From the IMG/VR virus record IMGVR_UViG_3300046777_001108, positions 1-24,438 of that record: a stretch of DNA of 24,438 nt; one strand, written 5' to 3'. The first letter of the stretch is position 1. Each line of letters begins with the position of its first letter. Of the stretch, positions 1,279 to 12,227 are shown in pieces. The notes under the pieces are model-generated. The model worked only from the letters and a program-made list of their open reading frames with translations, did no database searches and was not told the DNA's origin. The translations under genes and the position numbers were made by a program. The stretch comes from a virus.

Positions 1279-1307
1279 AGTATACCCTAATCCTGTCCTT
1301 AAGTCAA
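1279..1307 (-). promoter_or_regulatory. Leaderless promoter for gene 988..1272
   Basis: TTGACT (1302-1307), 17-bp spacer, TATACT (1279-1284), then six bases to ATG 1272. The -35 overlaps the upstream stop codon. It resolves the start of the membrane-protein gene. Confidence 0.7.
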
Positions 1308-1870
1308 ACATTACATAGGCTTAGAGCCTTATTGTATAGGTCAAACAATAAAGAATTATCCTGTTGTTCATAATGATCTTTTATTGAATCGTACAAAAAT
1401 GTATTTTTGCTGGACACTATGTACCCGCTCTTTTCCCCAAGTGTTTGTGTATAGTCAACCATGCTGTACGGTATGTTTAATTTATTTAAAACGTTGGACA
1501 TTGTTTCTTTAGGGTTTGTTATAAATTTTTCATAATCAATAAAGATATCTGCCTCTGAAACAATCTTTTTATAAAACTCTGAATAATCTTCGATATCTCC
1601 ACCAAGAATATCTGATAATTCTGTAAAACTATTAATGCTCTCTGTTTCATAAATCATAGCAGTTCTTGATGCCATACATTCTATTGGATTTCTAACTATG
1701 GTTATTATCTTTCTTCCCCTGGCATATTCTATGTCGTGAGACTTTGGAATATATGTTCCAGTGAGTTGTTTAAAGTATTCTGCAAAGTAGTTTGATCCAG
1801 ACCTTGGATAGGTTATAAGACATACTGCTGGAGGTGCCCAAGGAATAACCTCTTTTATAGACTCACCCAT
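1304..1870 (-). CDS. Sulfotransferase-like protein (188 aa)
   Basis: Residues 20-29 read TYPRSGSNYF, matching the 5'-phosphosulfate-binding loop of PAPS-dependent sulfotransferases (TYPKSGTTW-like). Residues 59-69 (VRNPIECMASR) match the 3'-phosphate-binding RDPxDxxxS element. At 188 aa it is shorter than typical 250-300 aa sulfotransferases, so it is a minimal form; the sulfate acceptor is unknown. It lies 7 bp after a second, related gene (1878..2420) and shares the same two motifs, so they are probably diverged tandem paralogues. A cell-surface or glycan modification role is inference only. Confidence 0.75.
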   Translation of the reverse strand: MGESIKEVIPWAPPAVCLITYPRSGSNYFAEYFKQLTGTYIPKSHDIEYARGRKIITIVRNPIECMASRTAMIYETESINSFTELSDILGGDIEDYSEFYKKIVSEADIFIDYEKFITNPKETMSNVLNKLNIPYSMVDYTQTLGEKSGYIVSSKNTFLYDSIKDHYEQQDNSLLFDLYNKALSLCNV

Positions 1871-1877
1871 TTTATAA

Positions 1878-2420
1878 CTAAAGAACTATTTTCTTTTCTA
1901 AAAGCCTGTTATAGTAAAAGTAACACAGGTCAATGTTGAAATCGGTCAGATCTACATCTGCATAAACCTTAAGTTCTTTACTCGACTCAACAAAGTTCTT
2001 AGAGTTATAGTCGATATCTGTAACAAACTGATGAGAATTTTCTTTGTTTATGTCTAATAGGTTTAGTGTTTTCTTAGTTACTTGATCTGGATGCTCTACA
2101 AGGTCTTTAAAGTCTATTACAATGTCTGCATGGTCATACAAAAAACTATATAGCAATACATATTCTGTTATAATTTGATTTATTCTTGGACCATCGCAGT
2201 GCGATAAATATTTTTCAAGTGCAACGTAAGAAGATATGCTGTCTTTTGGGTCTCTTGCTATTGTGACGATGGCTCTTCTTTTATTATTGTCTTTATCAAG
2301 CAAGTTGTGTACAGTATGAGATCTTTCAATATGAAAGTTTGCCTCTTTATATATAAGTCTATCAAAATAGTGAGACCCACTTCTTGGGTATGTTATTAGA
2401 TGTGGTGCTATTTTGCTCAT
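1878..2420 (-). CDS. Sulfotransferase-like protein (180 aa)
   Basis: TYPRSGSHYF at residues 10-19 is the P-loop-like PAPS-binding motif and IARDPKDSISS at about 54-64 is the 3'-phosphate-binding region. Between them is a conserved SH that follows the substrate strand (IERSHTVH), where many sulfotransferases place their catalytic His or acceptor site. The C-terminal half is acidic and aromatic. It is followed within 7 bp by the shorter paralogue 1304..1870. The ATG at 2420 has no clear Shine-Dalgarno sequence, so it may depend on upstream translation. Substrate unknown. Confidence 0.75.
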   Translation of the reverse strand: MSKIAPHLITYPRSGSHYFDRLIYKEANFHIERSHTVHNLLDKDNNKRRAIVTIARDPKDSISSYVALEKYLSHCDGPRINQIITEYVLLYSFLYDHADIVIDFKDLVEHPDQVTKKTLNLLDINKENSHQFVTDIDYNSKNFVESSKELKVYADVDLTDFNIDLCYFYYNRLLEKKIVL

Positions 2421-2421
2421 A

Positions 2422-2547
2422 TTATGAGATTAATCCCATAGAAAGATGATCTAAGCAGACATCTGCAATAACAAAGTCAGAGTGATTAACCACTATGTCG
2501 TAGTGGGTTGCATCTTTGTTACAAAAGAAACATTTTGATTTATTCAT
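2422..2547 (-). CDS. Small zinc-binding-type protein (41 aa)
   Basis: ATG at 2547 encodes MNKSKCFFCNKDATHYDIVV and later CLDH, a CxxC...CxxH arrangement expected to hold one zinc ion. Start choice is firm: TATAAT (2554-2559) with the extended TGG lies six bases upstream, giving a leaderless transcript, and this promoter begins right after the stop of the oxygenase gene 2563..4005. It thus opens a separate transcription unit for the two sulfotransferase-like genes. No DNA-binding domain can be assigned from 41 residues. Confidence 0.7.
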   Translation of the reverse strand: MNKSKCFFCNKDATHYDIVVNHSDFVIADVCLDHLSMGLIS

Positions 2548-2553
2548 GTATTT

Positions 2554-2562
2554 ATTATACCA
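2554..2562 (-). promoter_or_regulatory. Leaderless extended -10 for gene 2422..2547
   Basis: TGG-TATAAT, six bases before ATG 2547, located between two genes, so the sulfotransferase-like genes have their own transcription start. Confidence 0.7.
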
Positions 2563-4005
2563 TTAGGCAAAATCAAACCATAGAGGCATTATGTATCTTG
2601 ATCCATTGGTAGATTCTACATTGTACCAATAGTGAGGATTGCCAGGGAATAAAATAAGGTCACCAGCCTTTGGCTTTATAGTCATATTCTGATGAATAAA
2701 AGATAACTCTCCACCATGGTAATCGTCGTTTAGATATACCCATCCAGCCATATGGTTTGAGTCTTTTGACCCCATATCATCTATGCTAATCATTCTGCTA
2801 CCATTGTGCACCCACTGAGCAAACCGTGAGTTTCTTGGCTTTAGTTTTACATCATACTCTTTTTCTATCAAGTCCTGAACTGCTGGAATATATCTTTTTG
2901 AGTAATCAAGGGAGTCATAGTACAATAGATTCAACGATGGGTTTCCAAGAGGATCTGATTGGAGAAGTCTATCATTGCTTGTCTCTGTGCTATTAATTAA
3001 TTCTATGATGTTATCGCATTCATCTTTGCTTAAATAGTTATTAAATATTTTTATATTATTTTGACCGCCACCCATATTGGTAAAGTTTTTTATGGTTAGT
3101 TCAGATATTACAGCATTTCTAACTTTCTCAATGTTAGATTCAGGAACCACAATGCTGTCAAAATCTTTTACCAACTGTAGCAACTTGCTAATATCTTCTT
3201 GGTCAGTGTGGATCATAAAATCATATATGTCAAACCTTTTAGACAATTCTCTTATTTGTCTAACAACATCAACCATCGATCCCTTTATGTGGTGATACTG
3301 AGTTCTTGGTGCTGCATTTTTATCATACTTAACATTTTTCTCATCATCTGGATGATTCATGATAAGCGGATCAAGAATAAGTATTGGCTTTACTCGACTA
3401 AGGTCAATCTTTTTAAACTGATCCTTTTGCACCAAGTTATCATCAACATATATGTATTCGCAGTGCTTGTTTGCTATTCCAATTGTTGTATCTGAGGACC
3501 CAACAACTGCCATATGTGTCTTATGTTGATGAGTACTCATTAAGTCCATAATCTTATCCATCCAAACCTTAGACACTTCAACTCTTTTTGCAAGTGTGTC
3601 AATGAGCGATGGGTCATGCATGTAGTGATCTATAACTAACTTTTCAGACTTATCGTTTCCTTCGTCTCCCCATCTTCCAGCAACAAGGTTTACACCAATT
3701 CTTCCAGGGGCAAAACGATTTAATGTCTCACAAACTTTAGCAGCATAGTCTGGACTTACTCCGTATGCTGGTAAAGCAATAGTCATAATTAGTTGATCTG
3801 TTGCATCTAATGCGTCCTTAATAACTAATGAAAAGTCGATGCCTCCTGGACCATATGGCAGCAGAACAGACTTTACTCCTGCCCCATCTAACTCCTTAGC
3901 CATCTGCATAATTCCGTTAAGGTCTAAGTGCTCGATGCTATCAGTTATTTGCCAGTGTCGTCTCCACATCCAGTGAAACGTTATCTTTTTATTGTTATTT
4001 TCCAT
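2563..4005 (-). CDS. Luciferase-like monooxygenase domain fused to a degenerate 2OG-Fe(II) oxygenase domain (480 aa)
   Basis: Residues about 8-285 resemble the bacterial luciferase-like/SsuD flavin monooxygenase barrel: FHWMWRRHW at the start, GAGVKSVLLPYGPG, a strand ending in MTIALPAYGVSP, then FAPGRIGVNLVAGRWGDEG. Residues about 317-480 resemble a prolyl-hydroxylase-type 2OG oxygenase: GWVYLNDDYHGGELSF, KPKAGDLILFPGNPHYW, GSRYIMPLW. Compared with the separate oxygenase 4252..4866, the HxD His is Ser407 (SID) and the distal His is Tyr461, while Asp409 and Arg470 remain. The fused C-domain may therefore not bind iron normally. It overlaps the upstream gene by 11 bp, in one operon with 4252..4866. 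Substrate unknown. Confidence 0.75.
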   Translation of the reverse strand: MENNNKKITFHWMWRRHWQITDSIEHLDLNGIMQMAKELDGAGVKSVLLPYGPGGIDFSLVIKDALDATDQLIMTIALPAYGVSPDYAAKVCETLNRFAPGRIGVNLVAGRWGDEGNDKSEKLVIDHYMHDPSLIDTLAKRVEVSKVWMDKIMDLMSTHQHKTHMAVVGSSDTTIGIANKHCEYIYVDDNLVQKDQFKKIDLSRVKPILILDPLIMNHPDDEKNVKYDKNAAPRTQYHHIKGSMVDVVRQIRELSKRFDIYDFMIHTDQEDISKLLQLVKDFDSIVVPESNIEKVRNAVISELTIKNFTNMGGGQNNIKIFNNYLSKDECDNIIELINSTETSNDRLLQSDPLGNPSLNLLYYDSLDYSKRYIPAVQDLIEKEYDVKLKPRNSRFAQWVHNGSRMISIDDMGSKDSNHMAGWVYLNDDYHGGELSFIHQNMTIKPKAGDLILFPGNPHYWYNVESTNGSRYIMPLWFDFA

Positions 4006-4249
4006 TGATGTTTACTCTTCCCTTAGTTTTAAACCAAGAACCTATTTTAGAATATGATACCTTAGTTCTTAAAAGTTCTCCAAATGTTTCATGAGATATT
4101 TCTGAACCAAGATATTCTTGTCCAGTTTCAAGATCAATTAACTTCCATTTTCCTGGTGCTCTTGTATGCAAGATTAGATCAATTGGGTAGTCATAATCGT
4201 TTACCTCAGAACCATCTAAAAGTTTTCTTTTTTTAGTGCTATCTGTCAT
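3995..4249 (-). CDS. Conserved-type small phage protein (84 aa)
   Basis: The product starts MTDSTKKRKLLDGSEVNDYD and contains PGKWKLIDLETGQEYLGSE, a compact mixed alpha/beta sequence I associate with small conserved phage proteins of unknown function. The ATG at 4249 is chosen; a longer reading frame would extend into the upstream oxygenase gene. It sits 2 bp after the stop of 4252..4866 and overlaps the fused monooxygenase gene by 11 bp, so the three are probably cotranscribed. A weak GATAGT lies six bases upstream of ATG. Confidence 0.65.
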   Translation of the reverse strand: MTDSTKKRKLLDGSEVNDYDYPIDLILHTRAPGKWKLIDLETGQEYLGSEISHETFGELLRTKVSYSKIGSWFKTKGRVNINGK

Positions 4250-4251
4250 TT

Positions 4252-4866
4252 TTAAACTATCGTAAACCAAATAGGTAGTGTGTATCTGATGCCAGATAAA
4301 ACTTTTGTAACTTCATGTGGGTAGTGCATATTTCCTGGGAAAACAATAAACTCACCAACATTTGGCTTAAAGGACAAGTTATGTGTTTCAAACTTAATCT
4401 CTCCACCTTCGTATTCATCGTTAAGGTAGATGTGTACTGGTAGGTGGTTATCTGTAACATAGCCAAGATCATCAACATGCATCTCAAGATATGTGCCCTC
4501 TGTCCACTTAACAACGCTAAGTGTGTCCTGCTTTACTTGTATCTTTTCTTTTGCAATTCCATAAGATTTAGATATTTCCTCTATACATCTGTCGACGATA
4601 TTATAAGTGTCTAAAACACCATTGTACTTCGTCATGTGTGTTAGGGCATTACCTTGGTGATCCTTTTGAGACACGAATGTGATAGATGGTCTGTCTTCTA
4701 TGTTACGCAGAAGATATTCAACTTCTTCTTTTGTGATGAAATTAGGCACAACCTTGATATTTTCAGGGGAGTTACCAACCCTGTGGAAAAACTCTAAGTA
4801 GGATTCATTTCTTTCAATGCTCGCTGGATCATTACCAACCGCTTTACCATTTATCATGTATGTCAT
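4252..4866 (-). CDS. 2OG-Fe(II) oxygenase, prolyl-4-hydroxylase-like (204 aa)
   Basis: The double-stranded beta-helix core is recognisable at residues about 115-204. EMHVDD gives the HxD iron ligands (His130, Asp132), VHIYLNDEYEGGEIKF is the conserved strand pair, FPGNMHYPHEV supplies the distal His184, and GIRYTLPIW supplies Arg194 for the 2-oxoglutarate carboxylate. All key residues are present, so it should be active; its target (protein, free amino acid or small molecule) cannot be told. ATG 4866 is chosen because TATAAT (4873-4878) lies exactly six bases upstream. It heads an operon with 3995..4249 and the fused oxygenase. Confidence 0.8.
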   Translation of the reverse strand: MTYMINGKAVGNDPASIERNESYLEFFHRVGNSPENIKVVPNFITKEEVEYLLRNIEDRPSITFVSQKDHQGNALTHMTKYNGVLDTYNIVDRCIEEISKSYGIAKEKIQVKQDTLSVVKWTEGTYLEMHVDDLGYVTDNHLPVHIYLNDEYEGGEIKFETHNLSFKPNVGEFIVFPGNMHYPHEVTKVLSGIRYTLPIWFTIV

Positions 4867-4872
4867 ATAACC

Positions 4873-4878
4873 ATTATA
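4873..4878 (-). promoter_or_regulatory. Leaderless -10 for gene 4252..4866
   Basis: TATAAT exactly six bases before ATG 4866; no good -35 and no perfect TGn extension. Drives the oxygenase operon. Confidence 0.65.
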
Positions 4879-4972
4879 CACCATATAGCAATCTTTAAGT
4901 TCGGCGCAAAATAGAAGTAAAGAACCTTTCTATGCCCTAAACGGGCACTATTGGTTACTATCCTTCACCCTG

Positions 4973-6731: not shown

Positions 6732-7067
6732 TTATAGGTCTTTTGGAAAGATAGCATTAATACCCAGAGACTTATATGCATTGACAATCTTAGGGTTATT
6801 GTCTATGGCAAGAGTGATGTTTGGGATAGTCTTTGACATTTCTATCTTGAAGGTTTTGTCAGTATCTTGATCTAATGGGTTAAGAATTATATCCACATAG
6901 GCTATACCTAACCTTGAGAGTAATGCTTCATACTCAGGTTTCTTGGATATGTGAGAGCCTGAGATTATGTAGATATCTTCTGTTGTGTTGTTTAAGAAGT
7001 CTACCGTTTTTTGGATAGGTTTACCCTCATTGGCGATAGTTCCATTGATATCAACAAGGATAGACAT
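6732..7067 (-). CDS. HAD-superfamily-like phosphatase, small (111 aa)
   Basis: VDINGTI at residues 5-11 corresponds to HAD motif I, IISGS (34-38) to motif II, a Lys near 71-74 could serve motif III, and LAIDNNPKIVNAYKSLGI (87 onward) to motif IV. It lacks a cap domain, as do small phage 5'-nucleotidase or polynucleotide 3'-phosphatase-like proteins. The usual second Asp of DxD is Asn8, so the general acid is missing and classical phosphatase activity is doubtful. ATG 7067 is six bases after TATAAT (7074-7079, extended TGC); a DnaA-like box (7084-7092) abuts the promoter. Confidence 0.7.
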   Translation of the reverse strand: MSILVDINGTIANEGKPIQKTVDFLNNTTEDIYIISGSHISKKPEYEALLSRLGIAYVDIILNPLDQDTDKTFKIEMSKTIPNITLAIDNNPKIVNAYKSLGINAIFPKDL

Positions 7068-7082: not shown

Positions 7083-7094
7083 GTTATCCACAGG

Positions 7095-7214
7095 TTAGCA
7101 GTTATGAGTATATCCACAATCAGGACATTTCTCTCCTGGGTTTGCTACACAATCATCACACCAATCTGGAGCATCCTTCCAGGATATGCCTAATGGATCT
7201 AATTCTTCAGTCAT
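7095..7214 (-). CDS. Zinc-ribbon-like small protein (39 aa)
   Basis: The product has WCDDC and KCPDCGYTHNC, four knuckle cysteines plus His and a terminal Cys, a minimal zinc ribbon. The N-terminus is acidic (MTEELDPLGISWKDAPD). ATG 7214 is six bases after TATACT (7221-7226) with extended TGA. The gene is embedded in the DnaA-box cluster: TTATCCACA boxes lie on both sides and one near-match lies within its coding sequence. Confidence 0.7.
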   Translation of the reverse strand: MTEELDPLGISWKDAPDWCDDCVANPGEKCPDCGYTHNC

Positions 7215-7220
7215 TTATAT

Positions 7221-7229
7221 AGTATATCA
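7221..7229 (-). promoter_or_regulatory. Leaderless extended -10 for gene 7095..7214
   Basis: TGA-TATACT six bases before ATG 7214, with a DnaA-like box (7235-7243) in the spacer/-35 region. Confidence 0.65.
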
Positions 7230-7288
7230 AAGAGTTATCCACAGCCTGATACGCTAAAAATGTCATAGTTATCCACATGTTATCCACA

Positions 7289-7695
7289 GATAAATGTTAC
7301 TGATTGTTTAATTAGATAGGGTTAAAGTGGAGGATAGTGGAGAGTAGTGGAGTAGAGAGCGCTTTTATAGAAGGCGGCCTTAATCCCAAACCACCAAACC
7401 TCATATCCCCATATCCCCAAACCTTCAAACCCTTATACCACATAGCCCCATATCTGTCAAACCATTATATAAAGGTTTGGCATTATACATGCAAAACCAT
7501 GGTTTGTCAAGTCCTTTTATGCATGAAAATGCCCTAAAAAGTTCAGCGATTTTTTCGAAAAGGATCTTAATCTTTTTAAAAAACCTTAAAAAAGTTTATA
7601 AAGGTTTGGAAAAGTTTAAAAAAGTTCAGCGAATTTTATTTGATGGATCGTAATACCTTTATAGGGGTTTGTTATCAGAGTATAGGGGGTTTGGG
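7289..7695. other. Non-coding origin-like region
   Basis: No convincing gene. It contains three 10-bp tandem repeats (AGTGGAGGAT, AGTGGAGAGT, AGTGGAGTAG), many CAAACC/GGTTTG hexamers, a 14-bp direct repeat AAAAAGTTCAGCGA (7536-7549, 7619-7632) and an A/T-rich stretch (about 7536-7640) that could serve as an unwinding element. Confidence 0.6.
7326..7355 (+). repeat. Three 10-bp tandem repeats
   Basis: AGTGGAGGAT, AGTGGAGAGT and AGTGGAGTAG, one helical turn each, between the DnaA-box cluster and the hexamer array. Confidence 0.65.
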
Positions 7696-7944
7696 TTACT
7701 TGTTTTGATCCCCTGGGATTTCGCCTGGGGCGAATCGGCCTTCGGCCTGATTGTAGACTTCTCCTAGTTGCTTACCTATTGCTTGGCCGTCTAGACCCCG
7801 CACAAAATCGGGGGTAAATGAAAAGAACTTACCCAAACCTACAGTATGAGTAACACCCACAAAAGAATTCCATAGGTTATCACTAAAGGTTTGATATTCA
7901 TCTGGTTTGGCTTGTCTATATTGAGCAAAATGATCTCTTCCCAT
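7696..7944 (-). CDS. Hypothetical protein (82 aa) inside the GGTTTG repeat region
   Basis: The product starts MGRDHFAQYRQAKPDEYQ and ends GRFAPGEIPGDQNK; mixed helix, no Cys, no transmembrane segment. I do not recognise it. ATG 7944 is preceded by TTGTCA-18-TATAAT ending six bases upstream, so it is leaderless. It is isolated between two non-coding stretches packed with GGTTTG/CAAACC hexamers, three of which fall in its own coding sequence. An origin-associated role is possible by location only. Confidence 0.65.
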   Translation of the reverse strand: MGRDHFAQYRQAKPDEYQTFSDNLWNSFVGVTHTVGLGKFFSFTPDFVRGLDGQAIGKQLGEVYNQAEGRFAPGEIPGDQNK

Positions 7945-7950
7945 ACCCTT

Positions 7951-7980
7951 ATTATACACCTAGATATAAAGGTTTGACAA
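7951..7980 (-). promoter_or_regulatory. Leaderless promoter for gene 7696..7944
   Basis: TTGTCA (7975-7980), 18 bp, TATAAT (7951-7956), six bases to ATG. Its -35 overlaps a plus-strand TTGACA (7974-7979). Confidence 0.6.
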
Positions 7981-8002
7981 ATAAGGTTTGATATGGTATA
8001 AG
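7974..8002 (+). promoter_or_regulatory. Plus-strand promoter candidate 1
   Basis: TTGACA, 17-bp spacer, TATAAG with extended TGG. Near-consensus but no plus-strand gene follows; it would make a non-coding or antisense RNA. Confidence 0.5.
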
Positions 8003-8081
8003 TTTTGGGAAAAAATTTCAAACCATCGTAATCTATTTCTGGGAAAATTTTAGATTGGTTCGTAATACCCTCATATGAGGT

Positions 8082-8110
8082 TTGACAAGGTTTGAGATAT
8101 ATGATATTTT
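8082..8110 (+). promoter_or_regulatory. Plus-strand promoter candidate 2
   Basis: TTGACA (8082-8087), 17-bp spacer, TATTTT with extended TGA (8105-8110). A hairpin plus T-run (8125-8152) follows at once, which would give an RNA of about 35 nt. Confidence 0.45.
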
Positions 8111-8125: not shown

Positions 8126-8152
8126 GCGCACCCCGAAGGGTGCAGCCTTTTT
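8125..8152. terminator. Strong hairpin, terminator on the plus strand
   Basis: GGC-GCACCC, loop CGAA, GGGTGC-A-GCC (8125-8147), then TTTTT (8148-8152) on the plus strand. Read on the minus strand it has an ultra-stable C(UUCG)G loop after the stop of gene 8151..8447 but no U-run. It overlaps that stop codon. Confidence 0.6.
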
Positions 8153-8447
8153 ACTGCGAGTCTCGTTCGTTTTTCTTTTGCTCTACGATTGCGAGCAGGT
8201 CGTCAAGATTATCAACATCAAGAACATCGTCCTCTGTTACTTCCATAGCGTCAAGGAACATAGCAAAGGTTTCATTTACATACTCTTCTGCCATTGGTAG
8301 TGGTGTTACTACTCCCGTTGCAATAAACCAAGCAAGCGGCAAGCCTACATCGTTGTATGAAATGAAAGGCTTTAACTCCTCATCATCTCTGAACTCATAC
8401 CAAAACTGTCCCAAAATGGCACATCTATCTGCAAAGTCTACTTCCAT
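8151..8447 (-). CDS. Conserved-type acidic phage protein (98 aa)
   Basis: The product starts MEVDFADRCAILGQFWYEFR and includes YNDVGLPLAWFIATG and an acidic helical C-terminus. I associate this sequence type with small conserved actinobacteriophage proteins of unknown function. It overlaps the upstream gene by 10 bp, with TTAGGAGAGGA about 15 bases before ATG. Its stop codon lies at the base of a strong hairpin with a C(UUCG)G loop. It is last in the ten-gene run that begins at 10779. Confidence 0.75.
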   Translation of the reverse strand: MEVDFADRCAILGQFWYEFRDDEELKPFISYNDVGLPLAWFIATGVVTPLPMAEEYVNETFAMFLDAMEVTEDDVLDVDNLDDLLAIVEQKKNERDSQ

Positions 8448-12143: not shown

Positions 12144-12227
12144 TTTTTTAATGTGATCTTAAACACACGGTGTGTCGACTTGACAAAGTTATCCACAGGC
12201 CACCTAGGAAATTTTTGGGGGATTGAG

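Follow-up and report, generated by a model that had tools for sequence, protein, structure and literature searches.

Why does a phage genome carry DnaA-type boxes, phased short repeats and a dense array of hexamers side by side, and could such a region be a replication origin? We studied this arrangement in a virus record from IMG/VR (24,438 nt; hereafter the 24.4-kb window, meaning the whole stretch analyzed). The initial annotation had suggested either an origin or a DnaA sink. Our analysis favors the former: the region is probably a replication origin of the DnaA/iteron type, combined with a promoter-operator array.

The left part of the region contains the origin-like elements. Four exact copies of TTATCCACA (7084, 7235, 7269 and 7280) and one near match, ATATCCACA (7110), all lie on the plus strand, as reported initially. 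Two exact copies form a tandem pair (7269–7277 and 7280–7288, 11 bp apart), a third box (7235–7243) precedes the pair by 34 bp, and further left are the near-match box (7110–7118) and an exact outer box (7084–7092). Three more exact copies occur elsewhere in the window, at 12189, 16728 and 17955. An A/T-rich spacer (7289–7326, no strand), a candidate melting segment, leads from the pair to three plus-strand GTGGAG iterons (7327–7352) with an exact 10-bp period (7327, 7337 and 7347); these are the three 10-bp tandem repeats of the initial annotation.

To the right of the iterons, 18 GGTTTG/CAAACC hexamers fall between 7387 and 8094 (708 bp), the same number as first counted. The whole window has 46 copies versus 13.2 expected in shuffles (shuffle maximum 26). 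With 28 copies over the remaining 23.7 kb, hexamer density is about 20-fold higher in the array, and no hexamer enrichment in the window exceeds that of an 800-bp bin containing 16 copies (Poisson log10 term -13.7). The left block (7387–7463) consists of minus-strand CAAACC at 7387, 7395, 7418, 7426 and 7458, with 8-bp spacing within pairs; degenerate CATATCCC-like units also lie between these copies with an 8-bp period. The middle block (7474–7693) consists of plus-strand GGTTTG at 7474, 7501, 7603, 7666 and 7688. The right block (7834–8094) is mixed, with minus-strand copies at 7834 and 8019 and others at 7888, 7904, 7971, 7985, 8079 and 8089. The extended form TATAAAGGTTTG occurs three times in the window, every time inside the region. 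The 14-bp direct repeat AAAAAGTTCAGCGA was also confirmed on the plus strand (7536–7549 and 7619–7632), where it flanks an A/T-rich stretch. Plus-strand TCGTAAT repeats (7648, 8026 and 8060; 7648–8065) are an addition to the initial annotation.

Two promoter-like sites also went unmentioned there. The first, P_L (7482–7510, minus strand), is a perfect sigma70-type promoter, TTGACA-N17-TATAAT, matching at 12/12 positions. It lies in the middle of the array and reads left through the iterons and DnaA boxes, and CAAACC overlaps its -35 element. The second, TTGTCA-N18-TATAAT (7951–7980, minus strand), also has CAAACC overlapping its -35 and precedes a small ORF within the array (7696–7944, minus strand; 82 aa from the ATG at 7944), which is probably leaderless. 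This ORF has no Pfam match and is kept at the equivalent place in relatives, in some with a hydrophobic stretch. A rightward promoter-like site, TTGACA-N17-TATTTT (8082–8110, plus strand), overlaps GGTTTG; its homologue in two relatives (G004 and G005) is TTGACA-N17-TATATT. The hexamer was rejected as a general phage promoter motif, since its frequency at promoter-like sites beyond the array is not raised. The first gene downstream of P_L (6732–7067, minus strand) belongs to the polynucleotide-kinase-like family phrog_415, with one relative found. At the right edge, a conserved GC-rich hairpin (8128–8143, no strand), probably a terminator, comes directly after the stop of the right-hand neighbor gene (8151–8447, minus strand), which encodes a conserved 98-aa protein with no assigned function.

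The window is a piece of a ~115-kb phage akin to the Streptomyces phage family Stanwilliamsviridae. A megablast search of GenBank phages with the window gave no match. Relatives collected via the 98-aa gene include contigs of 100–118 kb. The DnaE-type polymerase of one relative, G001, is 46–55% identical to those of Stanwilliamsviridae, and the next best phages reach ~30%. Genes for a DnaB-type helicase, a DnaG-type primase and RecA are present in G001 or in its relative G002; relatives also have SSB-like and RuvC-like families. The window itself has no replisome gene. A DUF932-like gene, located a few kb to the right of the locus both here and in Samisti12, ties the window to Streptomyces phages. 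Homologous replisome and gene neighborhood suggest that the phage belongs to Stanwilliamsviridae or a sister group.

The layout of the locus is fixed across relatives. In an alignment of 17 loci, the most conserved elements were the tandem TTATCCACA pair, the GTGGAG repeats, TGTCAAACC and both promoter hexamers of P_L. Relatives keep only the 7269/7280 pair of boxes, often with the third box upstream, which is present in many of them; the outer box is mostly not kept. We counted features over 25 loci, 24 of which hold the tandem pair, with boxes 11 or 12 bp apart. All 24 have GTGGAG at +57 to +59 and at +67 to +69 from the first box, most have a third GTGGAG at +78/+79, and the A/T-rich spacer is of near-constant length. 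A perfect P_L is found at +158 to +239 in 21 of the 24, and a strict P_L-type promoter occurs at the equivalent place in nearly all relatives (L004–L031). Clustered consensus boxes thus occupy a single genomic place and are kept in relatives, with regular-period repeats at a fixed distance. The iteron pattern was found at one place in each of nine records checked, and the region is single-copy in the large genomes checked.

The same arrangement was recovered by a blind scan of viral contigs that used the GTGGAG repeats as sole query, with no DnaA box, hexamer or protein. This returned at least 120 stretches from at least 108 distinct loci. Among the matches listed, TTATCCACA was at the predicted offset in 96 of 106 stretches with enough left flank (91%) and the tandem pair in 84 of the 106; a perfect P_L was present in 72 of 86 with enough right flank (84%), at least 8 hexamers in 75 of 86 and at least 2 CGTAAT in 86 of 86. 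The DNA pattern TTATAAAGGTTTGG was also used for scanning, and its listed matches are a lower bound. Failure of the repeats to be conserved in close relatives had been named as evidence that would count against an origin; the layout is kept in close and distant relatives, so this half of the test does not refute. One match, L344 (CANGYR010000020.1), is filed under a Chitinophagaceae MAG and has the iterons, 31 hexamers and tandem boxes spaced from the iterons as predicted; it is probably a misbinned phage contig.

The initial annotation considered the combination atypical of phages. This did not hold for the boxes: tandem TTATCCACA is not exclusive to plasmids and chromosomes, as the converse scan of IMG/VR for copies 9–13 bp apart found at least 120 stretches. 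Among the matches listed, 8 have the array and 112 do not, some with up to 11 boxes nearby, and 7 of the 8 array-bearing stretches encode a relative of the 98-aa neighbor. Other viruses thus have tandem boxes too, and it is the array together with the iterons that marks this group.

The hexamer array looks more like an operator or recognition array around promoters than like classical plasmid iterons. Hexamer strand preference flips at P_L in relatives, with CAAACC mostly to the left and GGTTTG mostly to the right. Over 86 distinct loci, the base before GTTTG is G in 1137 copies, T in 194, A in 39 and C in 12; the nearby background has no G preference at this position. Individual genomes can depart from this, as does L383, with 18 TGTTTG and 1 GGTTTG, and in the drift from GGTTTG to TGTTTG most copies within one genome change in concert. 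Heterogeneity among loci has p = 4e-72, which overstates certainty because related loci were counted and are not independent. Judged from the sequences, such concerted drift is what would be expected if a single protein with a shifting preference read all these sites. The base before GTTTGTCAA at P_L had no clear link to the array majority, because the pattern also caught other sites.

Mycobacteriophage L5 stoperators are a familiar case of many short sites bound by one phage protein, and several overlap a -35 (TGTCAA) region. The window array is similar in having many short sites, here for one proposed phage protein, and several overlaps with -35 elements. L5 sites are longer, dispersed over the genome and in one orientation relative to transcription, whereas those of the window are clustered, in both orientations and have a different core. 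The array therefore does not consist of dispersed, single-orientation sites with a known repressor.

These observations bear on the main rival reading, a transcription-control hub with no replication role. In this reading, a phage regulator bound to the GGTTTG array would control P_L and its companion promoters; DnaA would be a transcription factor there and would not start replication. The perfect consensus promoter in nearly all relatives, the overlap of hexamers with the -35 of three promoter-like sites, the strand switch at P_L and the concerted drift all fit this reading. However, the most rigid elements, the DnaA pair and the GTGGAG iterons, are in the transcribed leader and not at the promoter. 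The DnaA boxes also persist in lineages with completely different arrays, and the hexamer does not serve as a promoter motif in other parts of these genomes. We consider a pure transcription hub rather unlikely.

Cultured phages show how far the DnaA boxes extend beyond the array. We screened seven cultured Stanwilliamsviridae (BillNye, Samisti12, Annadreamy, Gilson, Yaboi, Muntaha and Riptide), and all 7 have a single tight TTATCCACA cluster, which lies within a noncoding gap at 118–123 kb. No such cluster is present in four other actinophages that encode a DnaE polymerase. Where adjoining gene tables were examined, the gap is 1.3 to 1.8 kb; that of BillNye is shorter, with two small minus-strand genes annotated beside the cluster. 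The cluster is more than a space between convergent operons, because its flanking genes share one direction in Annadreamy, Gilson and Muntaha. An alignment-free k-mer screen of six lineages found DnaA-box words as the only 9-mers common to all, and TTCGTAA as a common 7-mer. The cultured locus shares with the window its genome neighborhood, single TTATCCACA cluster, TCGTAA repeats and promoter-like TTGACA words, but no GGTTTG array or GTGGAG iterons were seen. Each lineage has extra repeats of its own, such as GTTGAAC palindromes in Annadreamy and ATGTCTTAT in Yaboi. The locus is in GenBank without annotation in the gene tables examined, and none of the open-licence literature searched describes an origin for such large actinophages.

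Clustered consensus boxes conserved across the family would also be expected of a datA-like DnaA sink, which would titrate host DnaA and stop initiation on the host chromosome, and phage copy number presumably rises during infection. The sink suggested in the initial annotation is thus conceivable, but there are only 2–5 boxes in one cluster per genome, and the fixed iteron spacing, perfect promoter and array are left unexplained. We regard it as highly improbable.

The position of the cluster relative to the genome ends raises a packaging (pac) site at the concatemer cut junction as another reading. Cluster BE1 phages have defined ends with terminal repeats of ~11 kb (PMC5764925), and BE1 phage Lsr2 genes sit within these repeats (PMC8612146). 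In Samisti12 (L194), Yaboi (L197) and Riptide (L199), of subfamily Boydwoodruffvirinae, the DnaA cluster ends 50–63 bp before the right terminal repeat, as a pac or terminal-repeat site might. In BillNye, Annadreamy, Gilson and Muntaha, however, the repeat begins ~5–7 kb from the DnaA cluster, which is still kept, so its position does not depend on the cut. A packaging role has, in our view, a very small probability. The latter four phages (L193, L195, L196 and L198) all have a further TTATCCACA 255–256 bp from the pair (4/4), and the stretch in between looks alike in BillNye and Annadreamy.

An origin with DnaA boxes and iterons might be expected to adjoin a rep gene, and none adjoins this locus. 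No initiator family was found among locus neighbors or the 61 proteins of G001, which extends to relatives' genomes the initial observation that no initiator gene is nearby. Ten genomes searched for a DnaA C-terminal domain, indicative of a phage-encoded DnaA, had none. A search of ten genomes likewise found no ParA-type ATPase and no tyrosine integrase. This weighs against a centromere-like partition site or plasmid-prophage maintenance locus. Plasmid centromeres have repeated short sites beside promoters, which the short repeats here resemble; but besides the missing partition and integration genes, related BE phages are presumed virulent (PMC10690885), and we give this reading the least weight of all. 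Titration, packaging and partition are each less likely than either the origin or the transcription hub.

The candidate origin can be compared with several known systems. Origins with DnaA boxes and iterons are known from plasmids and plasmid-prophages of the P1 oriR, pSC101 and RK2 type. These share with the window clustered consensus DnaA boxes, helically phased direct repeats at a fixed distance and an A/T-rich spacer. The window differs in having no rep gene beside it, iterons of just 10 bp, an additional promoter-operator array and a large phage context with its own DnaB, DnaG and DnaE. In phage lambda the iterons are inside gene O. Lambda uses O protein and is not known to have a DnaA-box pair at its core, whereas the window locus is noncoding except for the small ORF. 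The lambda origin is transcriptionally activated from pR, together with an opposing pO promoter (PMC3985674), and thus resembles the window in having a strong promoter that transcribes through iterons and origin and a promoter-like site facing it. Cluster A mycobacteriophages have RNA-based prophage origins (PMC7157519). Like the window locus, these are ~600 bp to 1 kb of noncoding sequence with no initiator protein and with transcription implicated; unlike it, they lie beside parABS and serve prophage replication, and the window group has no linked ParA-type gene.

GC skew and duplex stability were also examined. The cumulative skew minimum, proposed as a check, coincides with the point where transcription diverges and not with the locus; the array sits close to the maximum. 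Skew follows gene direction and so is not a clean origin test. When fourfold-degenerate sites of same-direction genes are compared, plus-strand skew is higher to the right of the locus than to its left in 11 of 12 genomes. The step (mean 0.137) has the direction expected of an origin, but 19–50% of arbitrary long-arm positions have one as large. We therefore rejected GC skew as proof of an origin. The A/T-rich stretch is present as described but does not stand out in so AT-rich a genome: weaker duplexes are found in 7 separate segments at other places in the window and in 33–136 segments in relatives, and the stretch was not retained as a special unwinding element. In several Streptomyces relatives it is among the weakest segments. 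The initial origin reading is thus supported in part: by the conserved origin-like arrangement, but not by the cumulative skew or the A/T stretch.

The same layout, once per genome in a large phage group, is probably where or how replication starts and is controlled. A DnaA/iteron origin best explains the combination of an invariant DnaA pair, phased iterons, a promoter reading through them, an array of sites, a phage-encoded replisome and no recognizable initiator. We judge it reasonably likely that the locus is the replication-initiation and early-control site of a Stanwilliamsviridae-like actinophage. In the mechanism we propose, host DnaA would bind the tandem TTATCCACA pair, whose boxes are about one helical turn apart. 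DnaA and/or a putative phage protein would then occupy the 10-bp GTGGAG iterons at their fixed distance, and the A/T-rich spacer of 38 bp that separates pair and iterons would open. Leftward transcription from P_L through the iterons and DnaA boxes may help opening or priming, by analogy with lambda pR. A putative phage-encoded GGTTTG reader would bind up to 18 sites around P_L and the two weaker promoters; so placed, it could switch transcription and hence initiation. Phage DnaB, DnaG and DnaE would then build the forks.

More tentatively, the locus might represent a new class of phage origin: a rigid core of host-DnaA boxes and 10-bp iterons, plus a promoter wrapped in ~15–20 hexamer sites that follow a concertedly drifting phage-protein preference. 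It would be used by an abundant uncultured group and, with lineage-specific arrays, by the whole of Stanwilliamsviridae. If the origin reading holds, these large phages depend on host DnaA for replication even though they encode a helicase, a primase and a polymerase themselves, and a single short, defined fragment becomes directly testable in cultured Streptomyces phages. Hexamer drift offers a route to the GGTTTG-binding protein by co-variation, and the GTGGAG/DnaA-box signature is a ready metagenome marker for the group.

Some further observations concern satellites, RNA and gene content. The satellites MiniFlayer (L212) and MulchRoom (L213) have no DnaA-box cluster, and the locus found in their Stanwilliamsviridae helpers is absent from both. 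With no locus in common, they were rejected as carriers of the helper's origin; they have no known replication genes, yet also lack the cluster, which counts against the origin reading. Among known RNA families, a tRNA is the sole match in the window. A second perfect promoter, TTGACATTTRTYCCCCAAACCCCTATAAT, lies beside a tRNA in relatives (L006:2345–2373, L009:2456, G004:6409 and G005:4547) with CAAACC in its spacer; in the window counterpart, at about 10800, the hexamer is lost. G001 encodes two tryptophan-halogenase-like proteins and a carbamoyltransferase (L156:2600–4144, L157:11657–12865 and L157:2063–3502), unusual cargo for a phage, and left of the array the window has sulfotransferase and 2OG-Fe(II) oxygenase genes (1304–4884).
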